Below, piece by piece: positions 33,925 to 63,721 of a stretch of 64,000 nt of DNA. Numbering within the stretch: position 1 is the first letter of the stretch; every line of letters begins with the position of its first letter. A program made the position numbers and the translations under genes. This DNA is from Comamonas aquatica NBRC 14918 (GTDB lineage Bacteria; Pseudomonadota; Gammaproteobacteria; Burkholderiales; Burkholderiaceae_C). The stretch is taken from positions 98,424 to 162,423 of the forward strand of contig NZ_BBJR01000025.1 of the NCBI RefSeq assembly GCF_000739875.1, read 5' to 3'. The notes below the pieces were generated by a model. That model saw only the letters and a program-made list of their open reading frames with translations, did no database searches and was not told the DNA's origin.

Positions 33925-33942
33925 CGTGGTGCCCCGGGCCGG
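33925..33942. other. attL core repeat
   Basis: CGTGGTGCCCCGGGCCGG is identical to 63630-63647. After one mismatch (G for A) the match continues for three more bases (ATC). This is the remnant of the tRNA 3' end left by integration. Confidence 0.88.
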
Positions 33943-33999: not shown

Positions 34000-34209
34000 C
34001 CGGAATCAGCAATTCAAACAATACCGAAGCATGCTGATTAATACCGAATATCACCGCTGATTATATTCATCTCGTGGAAGCTATTAATTAGATATAAATC
34101 CGTCGAATCCCGTCGGTTGCTAGATCCCAAAACTTGCGCGGCAAGTACTGATGGGCTTGGTTGTAGGAACTGCCGACAGTGCCGTCGAAAGCGACACACG
34201 AAGCGGGCG

Positions 34210-34221
34210 GGCGAGGCGGGG
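34210..34221 (+). other. Candidate cos site of the phage
   Basis: GGCGAGGCGGGG matches, as I remember it, the start of the cohesive end of P2-family phages. Its position left of the portal gene Q is where P2 keeps cos. Arg-rich short dyads flank it (CGACAGTGCCGTCG to the left, CTCGAGCGCGCGCTGAG to the right). Confidence 0.55.
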
Positions 34222-34266
34222 TCTCGAGCGCGCGCTGAGGGGGCTGAGCAGGTGCCGCGATATGTC

Positions 34267-34313
34267 TTGCACACAGTGTGTTACAGGGCATATACTGTAT
34301 GCGCATACAGTAT
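34267..34313 (+). promoter_or_regulatory. SOS promoter with a near-consensus LexA box
   Basis: A -35 TTGCAC (34267-34272), 18 bp and a -10 TATACT (34291-34296) are followed by the palindrome TACTGTATGCGCATACAGTA (34293-34312). That palindrome fits CTGT-N8-ACAG perfectly. The box overlaps the -10, so LexA would block the promoter of the 34327-34527 gene until DNA damage. Confidence 0.8.
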
Positions 34314-34326
34314 TGAGCAGGTGACC

Positions 34327-34527
34327 ATGCCTACAGAGAGCAAGCACAAGATCCAGAAAGAGATTGATCAGGCCAGTGAGCGCGTTGGCGCGTTGTGCGA
34401 GCTTCTAGAAGCAGCGCAGCACAACAAGGTGAGTGCGTCCTGTATCCACTCCATCCTTAAACCGATCGCGCGACAGCTGGACCACGCTGCAGGCGCGATT
34501 GCCGACGCATCGCTGAACCACCAGTAG
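34327..34527 (+). CDS. Small LexA-controlled phage protein of unknown function
   Basis: This 66-residue helical protein (MPTESKHKIQKEIDQASERV start, two Cys, ending SLNHQ) has no recognised domain. GCAGG lies 5 bases before the ATG. It sits alone between cos and the portal gene, has its own SOS promoter and is followed by a terminator. In phage 186 a LexA-controlled gene (tum) at the comparable genome end encodes an antirepressor. A similar job is possible here but rests only on regulation and position. Confidence 0.65.
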   Translation: MPTESKHKIQKEIDQASERVGALCELLEAAQHNKVSASCIHSILKPIARQLDHAAGAIADASLNHQ

Positions 34528-34543
34528 CCGGGCCCATACAAAA

Positions 34544-34568
34544 AAAAGCCCCGCACTGCGGGGCTTTT
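34544..34568. terminator. Bidirectional terminator between the SOS gene and portal gene
   Basis: AAAAGCCCCGC-ACT-GCGGGGCTTTT is symmetric with A/T runs on both sides. It serves the plus-strand SOS gene and the convergent minus-strand Q gene. Confidence 0.88.
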
Positions 34569-34588
34569 GTTTTGGCGGGGGCTGCTGC

Positions 34589-35620
34589 TTACTTCAACTC
34601 TTGCGCCTGGGGTTCGTCCACTCCGGGCAACCTGTAGGTGTCAAACCGGCAGATCTCTTCCCCCGCAAAATCGTTGATCGCTGCGGCAAGGTGGGTCTGC
34701 AGGGGCTGGATCTCGTTGCGGGCAAACACCCGCGCCGCGTTGACCACGTTGCCAAAGCCCGCAGCATTGCCGGGCACCACACCGATCAACTCCGGCGGTA
34801 CCCGGTGCGCGGCCAGTTGGTCATCGCGGCTGACGTTCTTGATGTTCAGGAATTCGTCTTTGGCCGTCGCCTCTCCGATGGGGATCAGTTTGATGCCGTC
34901 CTTCTCCCCTTTCGGGCTGTGAAAAAACAGGTTGCGGAAGTTGCCGATCCCCTTGCTGCTTTTGAGGGCGGCGCGCAGGCTGTCCACGTCGGCCTGGTTG
35001 GGGCTGGGGTCCGTCATGTACAGGATGAAACCCGCGTGGCTGCCGTTGGTGTAATAGCGCCGGCGGAACAGCGTGGCCGATTCGTTGAGCAGGCTGGACT
35101 GCAGCGAGGCCAGATACTGCGGCACCCCATAGACTTCCTGGTCCACGTCCGGATCCATGATGTGGCAGATGCTGCCGCGGCGGAAGGTGTGCACCTCGTT
35201 CCACTTGGGCATGAAGCCAAAGCGCTGCAGATCCCGGTGCCGCCGCGTGTACTTGGCCAGGCTATGTGTCAGCTGCATGCCGCTGCCCAGCACGTTGCGC
35301 GGCTGCTCCAGGTAGGCGTTGGCAAACACCAGGTAGTCTTTGCACACCTTCAGCATGGTGCTGCGGCTGAGCATGGGGTGCGGCTTGAAGGTGCTGGCCA
35401 GCACCTGGGCCTTGAACTGGATGGCACTGGCGTGGTGGACTCCCGCCCGCAGCATGCGCGACAGGCCGTCAGCGCTGATGGGCATCTCGTACCACTCGTT
35501 GTGGATCAGGTTGCATTCGAAGTAATCGAACAGCTCCCGGCGGTCCAGCACGGCCTCCGGATCGCCAAAAGTGAATGCCTCGATCGCCTGGGGCGTTGCT
35601 ACGGTCGCCGAATCGGTCAT
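34589..35620 (-). CDS. Q: Phage portal protein (P2 gpQ family)
   Basis: This 343-residue portal forms the ring at the capsid vertex through which DNA enters. P2 gpQ features are AFTFGDPEAVLDRRELFDYFEC near the start, EWYEMPISADGLSRMLRAGVHH, YLFANAYLE-like LVFANAYLE, RRYYTNGSHAGFILYMTDP and VPPELIGVVPGNAAGFGN. The length equals P2 gpQ. Its ATG overlaps the terminase stop by one base (TGATG), so Q and P are coupled on the minus strand as in P2. Confidence 0.94.
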   Translation of the reverse strand: MTDSATVATPQAIEAFTFGDPEAVLDRRELFDYFECNLIHNEWYEMPISADGLSRMLRAGVHHASAIQFKAQVLASTFKPHPMLSRSTMLKVCKDYLVFANAYLEQPRNVLGSGMQLTHSLAKYTRRHRDLQRFGFMPKWNEVHTFRRGSICHIMDPDVDQEVYGVPQYLASLQSSLLNESATLFRRRYYTNGSHAGFILYMTDPSPNQADVDSLRAALKSSKGIGNFRNLFFHSPKGEKDGIKLIPIGEATAKDEFLNIKNVSRDDQLAAHRVPPELIGVVPGNAAGFGNVVNAARVFARNEIQPLQTHLAAAINDFAGEEICRFDTYRLPGVDEPQAQELK

Positions 35621-54421: not shown

Positions 54422-55369
54422 CTACCTTGGTGGCGAACCTGCTTGCTGCCGCTGATGGTGTCGTTCTGGGCGTTGCTCAGTAATTGCCTCAAACACGTAT
54501 TCATCAATCACCTCAACCCCTAGCCCCTCTGCCTTGGTCACTTTCGCTGGCCCAGCCTTGGGGCCACAAACTAAATAGTCCAAAGACTTGCTGACGGTGG
54601 AGCGCACTTCCAAGCCTGCAGCTTCTGCGGCAGCTTCCAGTTCTGCCTTGCGTGCTTTGGCAAAGCCGGTGAAAAGAACGGTGATCGGCGGTTCTTCGGC
54701 GTCAAACTCTTCCCCGGTTTCTGGCGATGAGAAATCAGGCTTGGCAGGGGTGTAATCCATGTGCCGACGTTTGTCGGTCCCAGCCAGCAACCGATAAACA
54801 TTGACCAGCTCACCGGTTTCAGCATCGGTCATCTCACCCTGGATGCGATCGACTCGAAACGTGCGCATGGCATTTCTGTCCAGGCAGTAACCATCGAGGT
54901 ACTGCCGACCATCGTTGCTGGCAATCCCCATCACACGCACCCGGCGGCGTGAGGATTGCCCTTCATGGTCGGTATACGAAAACAAGAACTCGCGGGGCAA
55001 TAGCGGTACCTCTGAGGTACTGCCAATCGATTGAGGCACTGGCGCTACTTGGTCGTCTGGACGCTGAGCAACGGCTGTTGTGTTTGCGATCTGTTTCGCT
55101 GGTCGAGAAGCTCGCCAAAGTGCAAAAACCAAGGATGCAGACAGCAAAACGCCAAGTCCTGCTACAGCTGGCCCCCCATTTGTCGGATCGGGAAGTAGCA
55201 AGCCTCCGCTGATGCAAAAGGCTGAGAAGCTAGCCAAACACCCCGTCGCCGTGCACGCGGCTTTACGAGCAAACGCACCCCAGCTCTTCAGCCTGGCAAG
55301 CCTTGCCATGGTGCGCCATGCCAACCACCAAGCACCAGCCATGCTGAGAAGAACAAGCAACGCATCCAT
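54422..55369 (-). CDS. Membrane protein with WYL-like and BRCT domains, possible cargo gene
   Basis: This 315-residue protein has three hydrophobic segments near the N terminus (about 1-20, 42-61, 70-86). A WYL-like domain follows (about 127-185: FLFSYTDHEGQSSRRRVRVM, YLDGYCLDRNAMRTFRVDRI). A C-terminal BRCT domain (about 229-296) has VLFTGFAKARKAELEAAAEA and VSKSLDYLVCGPKAGPAKVTKAEGLGVEVI. WYL domains sense nucleic acid or nucleotide ligands in defence and DNA-damage regulators, and BRCT domains bind nicked DNA or phosphopeptides. Joining both to a membrane anchor is odd. Lower GC than neighbours and a place between D and the repressor fit an acquired cargo gene. Start 55369 is preferred; 55393 is possible. 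Confidence 0.7.
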   Translation of the reverse strand: MDALLVLLSMAGAWWLAWRTMARLARLKSWGAFARKAACTATGCLASFSAFCISGGLLLPDPTNGGPAVAGLGVLLSASLVFALWRASRPAKQIANTTAVAQRPDDQVAPVPQSIGSTSEVPLLPREFLFSYTDHEGQSSRRRVRVMGIASNDGRQYLDGYCLDRNAMRTFRVDRIQGEMTDAETGELVNVYRLLAGTDKRRHMDYTPAKPDFSSPETGEEFDAEEPPITVLFTGFAKARKAELEAAAEAAGLEVRSTVSKSLDYLVCGPKAGPAKVTKAEGLGVEVIDEYVFEAITEQRPERHHQRQQAGSPPR

Positions 55370-55428
55370 TAAAAGCCCCCCCCAACACGGCATCTATGCG
55401 CCGTCAGTTGTCATCAATCACCGGTGAC

Positions 55429-55764
55429 TTACTCCGGCTTCAAAACTTCGGCAGCGGCTGACAGCAGGGCTCTGCCCTTGTCGCCACTTTCACGCCATGC
55501 CTGCAACAGTGCGCGCTCAGCAGGCGCCAGCGTTGCCTCGGACTCGTTAGATCGCTTGCCGGTCACAACGAACAGGACATCAATGCCTTGCTCAGCCATG
55601 GCGAAAAGAATTTGAGCTGATGCGCCTTGCTCGCCCTTCTCCCATGTAGCCAACGTGCCACGGTTTACACCACAGGCATCAGCCAAGGCGACCTGAGAGA
55701 GGCCAACGCGTGCGCGCTCAGATTTCAGTCTTTCGCCTATTTGTTGTAAATTTCCAGCAGACAT
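55429..55764 (-). CDS. XRE-family phage repressor
   Basis: This 111-residue DNA-binding protein has an HTH at about 20-40 (VGLSQVALADACGVNRGTLATWEKG). A short helical C-terminal part lacks a LexA-type peptidase domain. It is probably the lysogeny repressor (C/CI role). It has no self-cleavage site, so SOS induction would need a separate antirepressor. Two 18-bp operators lie at its start and in the divergent promoter. Confidence 0.88.
   Translation of the reverse strand: MSAGNLQQIGERLKSERARVGLSQVALADACGVNRGTLATWEKGEQGASAQILFAMAEQGIDVLFVVTGKRSNESEATLAPAERALLQAWRESGDKGRALLSAAAEVLKPE
55742..55759. promoter_or_regulatory. Operator O1 at the repressor start (imperfect copy)
   Basis: TGTTGTAAATTTCCAGCA shares its right half with O2. 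It overlaps the first codons of the repressor gene, which suggests autoregulation. It starts 32 bp (about three helical turns) from O2. Confidence 0.7.
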
Positions 55765-55831: not shown

Positions 55832-56071
55832 ATGACTACCTCTGCGCAACTCACACGCAAGCACTCCGGTTCGGTCGAACGCCTGGTGCATGAAAAACCC
55901 ATCCCCCTGCGCCTGGCCAAGAACGAGCTGGCCGAGGCCCACGACAAGGCCCGGGCAGAGGGCCGCAGCTCCAGCAACTTCTGCCGGCTGATCCACCTGA
56001 TGGGCATGGCCCGCTACCGTGAACTGGGCCGCGTGGAGCTGGGCGCCGCCGACATTGCCGGCCAGGGCTGA
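55832..56071 (+). CDS. First early gene, small basic protein of unknown function
   Basis: This 79-residue protein has LTRKHSGSVERLVHEKPIPL and a helical NFCRLIHLMGMARYRELG part. It lies directly behind the early promoter, where P2 keeps cox. I do not see a clear HTH. It could be a small regulator, but similarity is lacking. Confidence 0.6.
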   Translation: MTTSAQLTRKHSGSVERLVHEKPIPLRLAKNELAEAHDKARAEGRSSSNFCRLIHLMGMARYRELGRVELGAADIAGQG

Positions 56072-57465: not shown

Positions 57466-57880
57466 CAAGGCCCAGGCCGTCAACCCACAGGCCTCCCGCA
57501 TGGCTGCGCTGCGCCAAGCGGGCAAGGCGCTGAAAGCTGCCAAGCCGCCTGTGGCCTGCGCGGCCAAGCGCAACAAGCCAGCCATCGAACACACCGTGGA
57601 AGAAAACCGTGCCTACCTGGTGCAGTTGCGCAACGAGCTGCTGCGCAACGCCAGCGCAGGCCGCTGGCATGACGGTGAGGCCAAGGAATGGTCGCGCATT
57701 GCCCATGAGCAGCGCGTGATGCTGATGCTGTTGGCGGGCCTGGACGGTGATCTGCAGACCCTGGCCACCCGTGCCTGGCGCGAGTTCACGCCGCCCGAGC
57801 GCAGCGCCATCAAGTCGGAAATCCGCGCGGCCAAGCGCGCCTTTGTGGGCCTGGCTGCGCTGTGCAGCCGGGTGCAGTGA
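57458..57880 (+). CDS. Early protein of unknown function, helical and basic
   Basis: This 140-residue protein is rich in Ala, Arg and Lys, with VEENRAYLVQLRNELLRNASAG and MLMLLAGLDGDLQTLATRAW. It lies between tiny early genes and the replication gene (2-bp gap to gpA), the place of P2 gene B, but similarity to the helicase loader gpB was not seen. Confidence 0.62.
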   Translation: MADKAQAVNPQASRMAALRQAGKALKAAKPPVACAAKRNKPAIEHTVEENRAYLVQLRNELLRNASAGRWHDGEAKEWSRIAHEQRVMLMLLAGLDGDLQTLATRAWREFTPPERSAIKSEIRAAKRAFVGLAALCSRVQ

Positions 57881-57882
57881 CC

Positions 57883-59796
57883 ATGGCCCGCAAGCCCATC
57901 TCCCCAGCCCGCACGCTGCCCACGGCATCGCTCAAGGATTGGCAGCGCGCCAAGCCTGCGCCCTGGATGGTCAAGCGTGCCCTGGATGCGCTGATGCGCG
58001 CGGTGCCGCCACAGTGGTGCCAGCCGATCAAGTCGGCCGGCCTGGGCCGCCTGCTGGGCGATGCCCAAGACCCGCCACCGCTGTGGCTGCAGTCGTGGGA
58101 CGCCATCCAGGCCATCCGGGAGTTTGATGAACGCTTTGGCAAGGCCAGCAGCTGGAACCTGAGCGACTGGGAAATCTGCGCCATGGCCAAGCGCATGGTG
58201 CAGGAAGCGCAGGAGCTGGACGCCGCCGTGCAGGCGGAATCCGTGGAGGTGTCGGCCCGCCTGGATGTGGTGCGCCTGCTGCTGCGCATGCTGGGTGTGC
58301 GTGAGCCCCATGCGCTGAAGGGTGAGCCCGATGTGCTGCGCGCCCACGATGAAAGCTGGTGGCGGCGCCTGCTGCGCAAGCATGTGACCCGCGTGGTGGA
58401 AGCCGGGGCCGTGCGCCTGGGCGTGGTGAACCGCCAGCAAGGCGGCTACGCCAGTGACCACACGGTGCGCCGCCGCGAAGCGCAGATCGAGCGCAACGCC
58501 AATGCGTTGAAGCGCAGCCTGTTCAAGAACGAGGCGGGCCAGGTGTGGACCCTGTCCGAGCTGGCCGCCCTGTCGCCGTCCAACCCGGTGATTCGCGGCG
58601 GGGAGCTGATGACGCGCATCCGCGGCGCCGAAGAGTACGCCGATACGCGCAACCATGTGGGCCTGTTCCTGACGCTGACGGCGCCCAGCCGCTTCCACCC
58701 GGTGACGCTGGGCAGCGGTGGCCGCCCCCGCCCCAACCCGAAATATGACGGCGTGAGCACGCCGCGCGATGCGCAGATGTGGCTGCGCACGATGTGGGCG
58801 CGGGTGCGTTCGCACCTGAACACCCAGAAGGTGAACATGTACGGCATCCGCGTGGCCGAGCCCCACCACGATGCCACGCCGCACTGGCACGCCCTGGTGT
58901 GGGCCGAATCCGAGATGGAGGCCCAGTACATCGAAATGGCGATTCGCGCCTGGTGGCTGAGTGAGGACGGCGAGGAACGCGGCGCAGAAAAGAACCGCGT
59001 GAACATCAAGCGCATGGTGGGCGGCGGCGCTGCGGGCTATGTGGCCAAGTACATCGCCAAGAGCGTGGGCCATGCCGCCCTGGCCGACCACCTGGACGTG
59101 GTGCAGGGCCAGCTGTGGGATGTGGAGCAAAACGACATGCCCGGCCACCGCCGCGTGGACGCCTGGGCCGCGTGCTGGGGCATCCGCCAGTTCCAGGCCA
59201 TCGGCATGCCCAGCGTGTGCGTGTGGCGTGAGCTGCGCCGCGTGGGCCAGGACCAGATCGACGGCCTGCACCGTGACGGCGACCAGACCACGCAACGCGC
59301 CTGGGTGGCCTGCCACAAGCAAGGCAACGCACAGGCCAACTGGCGCGTGTACATGGAAGCCATGGGCGGGCACTGCCTGGGCCGTGGCCAGTGGCACCTG
59401 AAGATGGCGCACCGCCCGGTGGCCCCTGGCCAGGTGAACAAGTACGGCGAGGCCCTGACCGTGGGCCGCGTGGTGGGTCTGCAAACCCGCCGTGGCCAGT
59501 GGCTGGTGAGCCGCCGCATGGCATGGACGCCGGTGGCCGCAGAGACCGAGACATTCGACCCGGAAGCCTGCACCGATAGCGATGCGGGGCGTTCCCTCGC
59601 CATCGGCGAGGCACGCGCGGCCATGCCGCGCGCTTGGACTGGTTTCAATAACTGTAGAGCCCGTCTGACAGGCGAGCTGCGCAGGGCCGCTTTAGGCCGC
59701 GGCCGCCACGAGGCCGAGGACTGCATACCCGGTTTCCCTGGCCGAACAGACGCCGAATGGCGCTCCATCGGCCCCTCCCCCATCCCTTTTTATTGA
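57883..59796 (+). CDS. A: Replication initiation endonuclease (P2 gpA-like HUH protein)
   Basis: This 637-residue rolling-circle enzyme nicks the phage origin. The HUH motif is PHHDATPHWHALVWAESEME (His-hydrophobic-His, about residues 326-345). The catalytic tyrosine pair is GYVAKYIAKSVG (Tyr-x3-Tyr), as in P2 gpA. FLTLTAPSRFHP is the first HUH motif (FLTLT). In P2 the origin lies inside this gene, and the same may hold here. The C-terminal about 120 residues are variable. Confidence 0.93.
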   Translation: MARKPISPARTLPTASLKDWQRAKPAPWMVKRALDALMRAVPPQWCQPIKSAGLGRLLGDAQDPPPLWLQSWDAIQAIREFDERFGKASSWNLSDWEICAMAKRMVQEAQELDAAVQAESVEVSARLDVVRLLLRMLGVREPHALKGEPDVLRAHDESWWRRLLRKHVTRVVEAGAVRLGVVNRQQGGYASDHTVRRREAQIERNANALKRSLFKNEAGQVWTLSELAALSPSNPVIRGGELMTRIRGAEEYADTRNHVGLFLTLTAPSRFHPVTLGSGGRPRPNPKYDGVSTPRDAQMWLRTMWARVRSHLNTQKVNMYGIRVAEPHHDATPHWHALVWAESEMEAQYIEMAIRAWWLSEDGEERGAEKNRVNIKRMVGGGAAGYVAKYIAKSVGHAALADHLDVVQGQLWDVEQNDMPGHRRVDAWAACWGIRQFQAIGMPSVCVWRELRRVGQDQIDGLHRDGDQTTQRAWVACHKQGNAQANWRVYMEAMGGHCLGRGQWHLKMAHRPVAPGQVNKYGEALTVGRVVGLQTRRGQWLVSRRMAWTPVAAETETFDPEACTDSDAGRSLAIGEARAAMPRAWTGFNNCRARLTGELRRAALGRGRHEAEDCIPGFPGRTDAEWRSIGPSPIPFY

Positions 59797-62424: not shown

Positions 62425-63441
62425 TTACAGTCGGGCAGCTATGTCCTCTTCAGTTTCCCGATAGTAGGTGTTGAAGAGTAGATTGATGTCCTTGTGCCCA
62501 CTGATCCGTGCCAAGGTCATCACGTCCACCCGTTTAGCAAGCCAAGTCAATGCCGTGGCACGCAGGTCGTGAAAGTGAAGGCCATCGATCATGACCCGAT
62601 CACGCAGCTTGCGATAAAGCACGTCCCTGCTGTCATCGCTGATCGTGAAATAGTTGTCACGGCCGGCTGCTGCTGCTGCCTGATCCAGCACGCGAAGCAG
62701 ACGTAAGCTACGTGTGGTCAACGGGACCTTGCGAGCGCCAACCACCCCTGCGGTCTTGTGCTCGGTAAGCGTGTAGATCTTTCGCTTCAAGTCGACTGTG
62801 CTGCGGCTCATGCGCAGAATTTCACCGCTGCGCAGGGCTGTGTGCAAGGAGACCCACATCGCCCATGCCGTTTCTTGTGTTGGCGCCAGTGGTGCAGTGT
62901 CACGCGTCACACCAGCAGAACGCAGCATCAAGCGGATCTCTGTCCATGCGCTGGTGCGTTTTCGGGCAAACCCCTTCGCCGGCAGCTTGATGGACTTCCA
63001 CGGGCTCTCTCCGGCCCACTTCCACTCTCGGATAGCAATCGTCCAGATAGGGCGGAAAAGCTGTGCCTCACGCAGCACGGTGTTGGGAAGCACCGTTTTC
63101 AAGCGGGTGTCACGCCACTTGGCCAAGTCGGCACCGCTGATTTCATGGAATGTTTTGCCTGTGAGCCAGGGAAAATCACGCACCAAAGCATCCAAACGCA
63201 GGTTATCTGCGCGCTGTCGATCAGCAGGTTTCTTGCTGACAACCTCTTGCCGGTACTTATCGATTGCTTCTTCCAGAGTGCGCTTGGGGTATTGACCGCG
63301 TGCACCTGCCAGGATGGCGGCTTCTTCGGCCACAGCCCAGGCCTGTGCCTCTGCCTTGGTAGGCCGCACGGCGGACTTGCGCACACCTTCGCGCACAACC
63401 TCTGCGCGCCAACCAGTCTTGAGCTTTCTGTAGTAGGCCAC
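62425..63441 (-). CDS. int: Tyrosine integrase of the prophage
   Basis: This 338-residue site-specific recombinase has an N-terminal AP2-like/arm-binding part (KLKTGWRAEVVREGVRKSAV). A core-binding helix domain follows (about 50-150), then the catalytic domain with Arg in ALRSGEILRM, His-x2-Arg in HFHDLRATALTWL, His in SGHKD and the nucleophile Tyr in FNTYYRETEE. It catalyses integration at tRNA-Leu. The GTG start at 63441 has a G-rich ribosome site. Three TGCGTAA sites lie just upstream (63466-63495), and attR is 190 bp away. Confidence 0.94.
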   Translation of the reverse strand: MAYYRKLKTGWRAEVVREGVRKSAVRPTKAEAQAWAVAEEAAILAGARGQYPKRTLEEAIDKYRQEVVSKKPADRQRADNLRLDALVRDFPWLTGKTFHEISGADLAKWRDTRLKTVLPNTVLREAQLFRPIWTIAIREWKWAGESPWKSIKLPAKGFARKRTSAWTEIRLMLRSAGVTRDTAPLAPTQETAWAMWVSLHTALRSGEILRMSRSTVDLKRKIYTLTEHKTAGVVGARKVPLTTRSLRLLRVLDQAAAAAGRDNYFTISDDSRDVLYRKLRDRVMIDGLHFHDLRATALTWLAKRVDVMTLARISGHKDINLLFNTYYRETEEDIAARL

Positions 63442-63629: not shown

Positions 63630-63647
63630 CGTGGTGCCCCGGGCCGG
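63630..63647. other. attR core repeat (3' end of tRNA-Leu)
   Basis: CGTGGTGCCCCGGGCCGG, identical to attL. It covers the acceptor end and encoded CCA of tRNA-Leu, so the tRNA stays intact after integration. Confidence 0.9.
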
Positions 63648-63721
63648 AATCGAACCGGCATGCCGTTTTAAGAGGCGGCGGATTTTAAGTCCGATGTGTC
63701 TACCAATTTCACCACCGGGGC
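63632..63721 (-). tRNA. tRNA-Leu (TAA), prophage target
   Basis: The minus strand reads GCCCCGGTGGTGAAATTGG at its 5' end, anticodon TAA in the ACTTAAAA loop, a long variable arm, T-arm GGTTCGATTCC and encoded CCA. Length 90. Its 3' end is the attachment site. Confidence 0.97.

Follow-up and report, generated by a model that had tools for sequence, protein, structure and literature searches.

DNA damage does not induce phage P2, nor does it induce many P2-like phages, according to a passage in PMC10612066, which also reports a Tum homologue in Pseudoalteromonas phages. In the record of phage 186, tum is placed between gpA and the end of the genome, with a putative LexA site lying over the -10 element of promoter p95 in front of it, and a note in the same record states that Tum inhibits DNA binding by CI. 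The epsilon protein of satellite P4 is another small protein, annotated as derepressing its helper. Gifsy prophages, whose antirepressors are also small, are not P2-like. The group of repressors addressed by the Gifsy antirepressors includes DicA, as described in part of PMC3121763, and smORF antirepressors are introduced in a section of PMC10432266 as prophage-encoded proteins of very small size that inactivate cI by means other than proteolysis.

The locus described here lies in a 64-kb window (the whole stretch of DNA that was analyzed) carrying a prophage of ~30 kb, bounded by an 18-bp repeat at 33925 and 63630. A 66-aa gene follows closely on the left attachment site, on the prophage side, and is the first such ORF there; once the phage is circular, the integrase and portal genes would flank it. 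The features used below are as follows.
33925..33942, + strand: left attachment core, an 18-bp repeat of the tRNA-Leu end (exact repeat of 63630-63647)
34210..34221, + strand: cos-like motif GGCGAGGCGGGG, upstream of the 66-aa gene (motif scan)
34268..34296, + strand: sigma-70-like promoter, with a weak -35 (TGCACA, 34268-34273) and a -10 (TATACT, 34291-34296)
34293-34312, no strand: LexA-type box TACTGTATGCGCATACAGTA, overlapping the -10 on the 5' side of the 66-aa ORF (motif searches)
34327 (ATG) to 34527 (stop), + strand: 66-aa ORF, candidate antirepressor (predicted helical hairpin; profile relatives)
34544..34568, no strand: G+C-rich stem-loop between the convergent 66-aa and portal genes (terminator score for the portal strand only)
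34589..35620, - strand: P2-type portal gene (Q), convergent with the 66-aa gene (phrog_68, E 2.1e-141)
55429..55764, - strand: 111-aa HTH repressor, the proposed target (HTH_3, E 5.5e-9)
55832..56071, + strand: Arc-like regulator, divergent from the repressor (phrog_3431, E 2.9e-10)
57862..59796, + strand: gpA replication protein (PF05840, E 9.5e-68)
62425..63441, - strand: integrase (PF00589, E 7.2e-14)
63630..63647, + strand: right attachment core at tRNA-Leu (repeat of 33925; tRNA-Leu at 63632-63721)

The stem-loop at 34544..34568 is near chance level (one found by the terminator scan, 0.5 expected). The motif GGCGAGGCGGGG at 34210, which we take to resemble the cos site of P2, had no match in the scanned stretches of 186 and PSP3. 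Depending on the relative, the small gene is found on either side of the cos-like motif (34210-34221 in the window); the motif lies between small gene and portal in G701, G705, G698, G729, and G740, for example. Directly downstream of the repressor, a protein with WYL and BRCT domains is encoded at 54422-55393 (- strand), with an N-terminus that appears hydrophobic by eye.

An earlier note on this DNA had claimed a palindrome over the -10 of a promoter ahead of the 66-residue gene, and we located the two elements at 34293-34312 and 34291-34296, respectively, as described. TGCACA/TATACT is the single promoter-like site within 34100-34700 (9/12 matches; shuffled sequences gave a mean of 0.0, sd 0.2). 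The exact pattern CTGTN8ACAG occurs once in the window, at TACTGTATGCGCATACAGTA; with one mismatch allowed it occurs at 18 sites where 24.3 are expected, and therefore only the exact site is informative. Five places in the 3.73-Mb genome resemble TACTGTATNNNNATACAGTA with up to three mismatches, the prophage site being the only one with zero mismatches, and the reversed pattern used as a control gave two places. One of the other four sites precedes a gene with an S24 match, read as UmuD-like, and host lexA is preceded by a similar box, CTGGTTAAAAATACAG. We concluded that the promoter of the 66-aa gene is almost certainly under LexA control, the predicted operator overlapping the promoter as judged from the sequence match.

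Next, we examined how far the small protein and its box are kept among relatives. The first search gave 13 proteins with identity of at least 76%, the window's own cluster included, and a profile search of proteins raised the family to 19 members. Of 53 genomes of the same genus, 13 (the own genome among them) have matches to the family profile, at 15 loci in total. A LexA-type box stands 13-23 bp ahead of the start codon in 14 of these 15 loci (13 of 14 besides the window), and the -10 TATACT is present in 12 of the 14 boxed loci. The sole locus lacking a box, L138 in G743, is a remnant with an internal stop and was kept in the count as one miss of 15. Identity to the 66-aa query falls to 25% (L139, where the reported match crosses its own stop codon and the preceding ORF was used), and the recurrence of the box thus reaches far beyond general DNA similarity. 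Family loci taken from viral contigs carry the box in all five cases with upstream DNA, two of them being near-copies of the window. The LexA control put forward in the earlier note is well supported by these sequences, since the box also recurs before relatives that its author had not seen. In the regions examined in G738, G693v, G740, G697b, and G723, a second LexA-type box was observed elsewhere.

The same note had proposed a search for homologues at the same place in related prophages, and these were found: a convergent match to the window's portal adjoins the small gene in 12 of 15 same-genus loci, two of which (G733 and G700) have only part of the portal. P2-type phage genes lie near the small gene, within the stretch examined, in 14 of the 15 loci, the exception being G743. 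In G289 and G697a there is no match to the window's portal or capsid and other P2-type genes take their place, and both retain the box, the small gene, and homologues of the repressor, Arc-like, gpA, and integrase genes. These two prophages bear on the view that the small gene is a LexA-controlled moron that serves a late or accessory function, such as lysis or exclusion, and is dispensable for induction. A solitary gene with its own promoter at a prophage end would fit that view, and accessory genes gather at this end in P2-like phages; against it, small gene and box have been kept in G289 and G697a despite the unmatched portal and capsid, and we consider it very unlikely. At the viral locus L042 the portal is 99% identical to the window's and the boxed small protein 26% identical. 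Two contigs bearing one isolate number (2868169047), L003 and L042, match the window's portal at 98.5 and 99.4% identity; the small protein of L003 is exactly that of the window, and the L042 form is the one that is 26% alike.

To place this genome end in a wider frame, we scanned the DNA on the two sides of 80 viral loci with a related P2-type portal (271 and 273 kb, nearly equal). A box scoring at least 15/20 was found beyond the 3' side of the portal in 44 of 80 loci and on the structural side in none. In 37 portal loci the gene behind the box was linked by blastp to 186 Tum, PSP3 TumA, or a Fels-2-type protein; nine of the 37 match 186 Tum directly and the others are linked via the Fels-2-type protein. 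This type has matches in two groups that themselves match Tum, and it occurs in Fels-2 and in 64 further phage records, the names of which are all enterobacterial. Like tum, the 66-aa gene has a LexA-type site in front of it and lies between gpA and the portal. The Tum-like place proposed for it in the earlier note is well supported, also by its relatives, and the 186 record shows the same layout. The expectation that its sequence would be unrelated to Tum was borne out as well: comparison of the family with 186 Tum, PSP3 TumA, and an alignment of ten Tum-like proteins gave an hhalign probability of 0.1 or less. Taken together, the boxes beyond portals, the Tum-linked genes, and the 186 layout indicate that damage control from this genome end is a repeated solution, for which a different protein is used here. 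Another gene family, encoding 102-103 aa, lies beyond the portal behind strong LexA-type boxes near P2-type portals (L106 and L093), and is possibly yet another damage-controlled regulator.

Outside the genus the family is sparse. Searching 399 genomes of the order with the single sequence gave matches in the own genome only. With the profile, and apart from the own genome, at least two of 399 genomes were matched in the order and at least six of 399 in the family (one of them, G289, of the same genus), and none of 369 in the class among the best 15 or 16 candidates scored per genome, a number at which misses are possible. There are seven profile matches outside the genus, two of which (L189 and L190) were read as chance matches and dropped. 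L186, from another genus, has both the box and an adjoining portal, L188 has an adjoining portal, and L187 has neither box nor portal. Following the unboxed homologue at L187, the stretch 1719-2558 encodes a protein that by eye resembles a Bro-N type antirepressor. Two other families of the order are represented by L191 and L192, both placed tail-to-tail with a homologue of the window repressor (35-36% identity), separated from it by 44 bp at L191 and overlapping it at the stops at L192; further P2-type genes are found in both stretches. Their pairwise homology to the family was scored at E 2e-7 and 2.2e-5 (probability 94 and 76%), respectively. L187, L188, L191, and L192 have no LexA-type box. 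L191 has one identical locus in viral contigs and no relatives among proteins, and L192 has relatives in neither set. When the family profile was run on the ORFs of the 80 portal loci and of 80 viral loci around repressor relatives, only L042 was credible (L195, at E 0.75, was not), and the reversed-sequence control gave no match. No credible neighbour was thus found at the 80 repressor-relative loci, which indicates that a small gene abutting the repressor is a rare arrangement.

The repressor at 55429-55764 had been described as too short for a self-cleaving peptidase domain, and we found it to be a protein of 111 aa with an HTH only; its best NCBIfam match is DicA, far below the cut-off. 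Peptidase_S24 has three matches in the own genome and none on the prophage contig, so the window repressor lacks the peptidase of a RecA-cleaved CI-type switch. We compared 13 prophages, the window included; G733, G743, and G700 were left out because no repressor lies in the stretch analyzed (in G733 and G743 the 40 kb examined contain no homologue of it, and the G700 contig stretch ends before one), and G687v, a copy of the window's prophage, was not counted. All 13 have a homologue of the window repressor adjoining an Arc-like gene. The repressor is 110-115 aa long in 11 of them, and none of the 11 repressors scanned (the window's and 10 of the 12 others) has a peptidase match. In G697b and G723 (L177/L178 and L181/L182) the repressor is instead a single chain of 198-199 aa that carries two HTH units. 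These two prophages also have the most divergent small proteins, yet their portal identity to the window is 68-71%.

Small-protein and repressor distances were correlated across the 13 prophages (Mantel r 0.58, p 0.003), also in a partial test on the portal (0.54, p 0.02, n 10). Proteins shorter than 60% of the window's length were excluded, and the G729 portal has an early stop. Such correlations are inflated by related sequences, and distances of portal, capsid, and gpA also correlate with those of the small protein (r 0.42, 0.42, and 0.33). When the two tandem-HTH prophages were removed, the correlation with the repressor fell to r 0.125 (p 0.21), and strict one-to-one co-evolution of the two proteins is unsupported inside the single-HTH group. 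In the same 11 prophages the small protein correlates with the Arc-like regulator at r 0.617 (p 0.0002), as would be expected if its target were this divergently encoded protein or another early regulator. The value may be inflated by close sister pairs, however, and it is the repressor that has changed in the divergent subfamily, whose Arc-like proteins are 52 and 47% identical to the window's (others 29-56%). L191 and L192 also abut the repressor, and we regard an early regulator other than the repressor as quite unlikely to be the target.

Sister pairs give a hint of where a repressor might be contacted. In three pairs with small proteins 92-97% identical, the repressors are 67, 43, and 55% identical, with 58, 29, and 49% in the HTH half and 76, 57, and 61% in the C-terminal half. 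In a fourth pair, with small proteins 83% identical, the order is reversed (98% in the HTH half and 85% in the C-terminal half), and across the full set of 55 pairs among the 11 repressors the two halves are nearly level, at 53 (HTH) and 56% (C-terminal), the C-terminal half being the higher in 28 of 55. Because three of the four sister pairs differ in their HTH halves, contact is likelier in the C-terminal part than at the DNA-reading helix. The small protein, if an antirepressor, probably uses a C-terminal surface common to the repressors of such pairs, which we offer as a lead rather than a result, and its range may be broad. In G698, two such prophages have small proteins 92% identical and repressors 55% identical. 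A bolder version is that the family is a broad-range antirepressor that grips the C-terminal part of the repressor and serves as the trigger by which P2-like prophages of this betaproteobacterial branch respond to damage, the protein of one prophage waking heteroimmune neighbours in the cell; this is a tentative proposal that we think will more probably fail than hold.

The earlier note had also described the 66-residue protein as having no known domain. This stands for the query, for which no family of Pfam, PHROGs, or NCBIfam, DinI among them, was matched above its cut-off, and has to be qualified for the family, as eight of the 19 listed proteins carry a precomputed DUF1484 (PF07363) label from a later model version. 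Run against 13 relatives, the DUF1484 model matched two, the best at E 0.056, and left the query unmatched; by the curated cut-off the 66-aa protein is not a member of DUF1484. In 299 same-family genomes the model gave four matches that barely exceeded the cut-off, none boxed and none in the own genome, which were read as chance. DUF1484 is treated in parts of PMC5339254 and PMC554113, the former describing VioS, a negative regulator of 138 aa with a weak DUF1484 match. In the open-licence literature, by title and start of abstract, none of the matches listed besides these two papers dealt with the small-protein family. AlphaFold2 models the 66-aa protein as a hairpin of two helices, residues 2-29 and 37-64 (mean pLDDT 85.5). 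A search of the PDB with this model gave no match at E 0.001 or better, only generic helical hairpins; a plain hairpin as modelled fits a small binding protein and proves nothing.

The absence of a DinI match is relevant to the possibility that the small protein is SOS-controlled and has its target in the host (RecA, cell division, repair), like the DinI-like half of Tum. Such a part does stand behind a similar promoter in 186 and PSP3 (phage records; part of PMC3121763), and the 66-aa protein is tied to the repressor by context only. However, no DinI or other family was matched above cut-off, P2-type phage genes accompany nearly all same-genus loci, the two distant homologues abut a repressor gene, and a host target would deprive these prophages of any recognised damage switch. 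We consider a host target unlikely. The action of the small protein as an antirepressor, which the earlier note had put forward as possible, is the best explanation for the peptidase-free HTH repressors, the changed repressor that goes with the divergent subfamily, and the two homologues abutting the repressor gene. From this context, the 66-aa protein is probably the damage trigger of the P2-like prophage, directed against its resident 111-aa repressor.

The proposed switch would work as follows. Host LexA would keep the small-gene promoter shut via the palindrome over the -10, and DNA damage would allow the 66-residue protein to be made. The protein would then bind and disable the 111-residue repressor, and the early genes (Arc-like regulator, gpA) would be released, as with Tum in phage 186 but through an unrelated protein. 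The sequences show the box, the promoter match, the gene, the lack of a peptidase, and the recurrence of box and place in relatives; that LexA binds, that the gene is expressed after damage, that its product contacts the repressor, and that the early genes are then released is our inference. If the proposal is true, P2-like relatives with peptidase-free repressors became inducible, independently of Tum, by placing a small antirepressor under the control of host LexA, and it can be predicted which prophages answer DNA-damaging drugs and whether co-resident ones are induced jointly. It also provides a testable function for proteins that are unnamed or labelled 'DUF1484'.

Among the known systems, Tum of 186 and TumA of PSP3 come closest, each being like the present case a small protein behind a LexA-type site over the -10 at the gpA-portal genome end. 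They differ in having a DinI-like part, which the 66-aa protein lacks; here gpA is separated from the small gene by the integrase and the attachment site, unlike in 186 and PSP3, and the repressor is 111 aa, compared with 192 aa in 186 (record coordinates). GfoA and GftA of the Gifsy prophages, likened by description, are small LexA-controlled antirepressors as proposed here. The smORF antirepressors are reported as SOS-independent in a section of PMC10432266, whereas the operator here is LexA-type, and P4 epsilon shows no sequence similarity to the 66-aa family. VioS of Chromobacterium, also likened by description, is joined to the family by its weak match to DUF1484, the label of eight of the 19 members, and is 138 aa against 66 aa here. 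On the best reading, the small proteins thus form a new, Tum-unrelated family of LexA-controlled antirepressors doing a known job, with LexA control well supported and the antirepressor step deduced from context.
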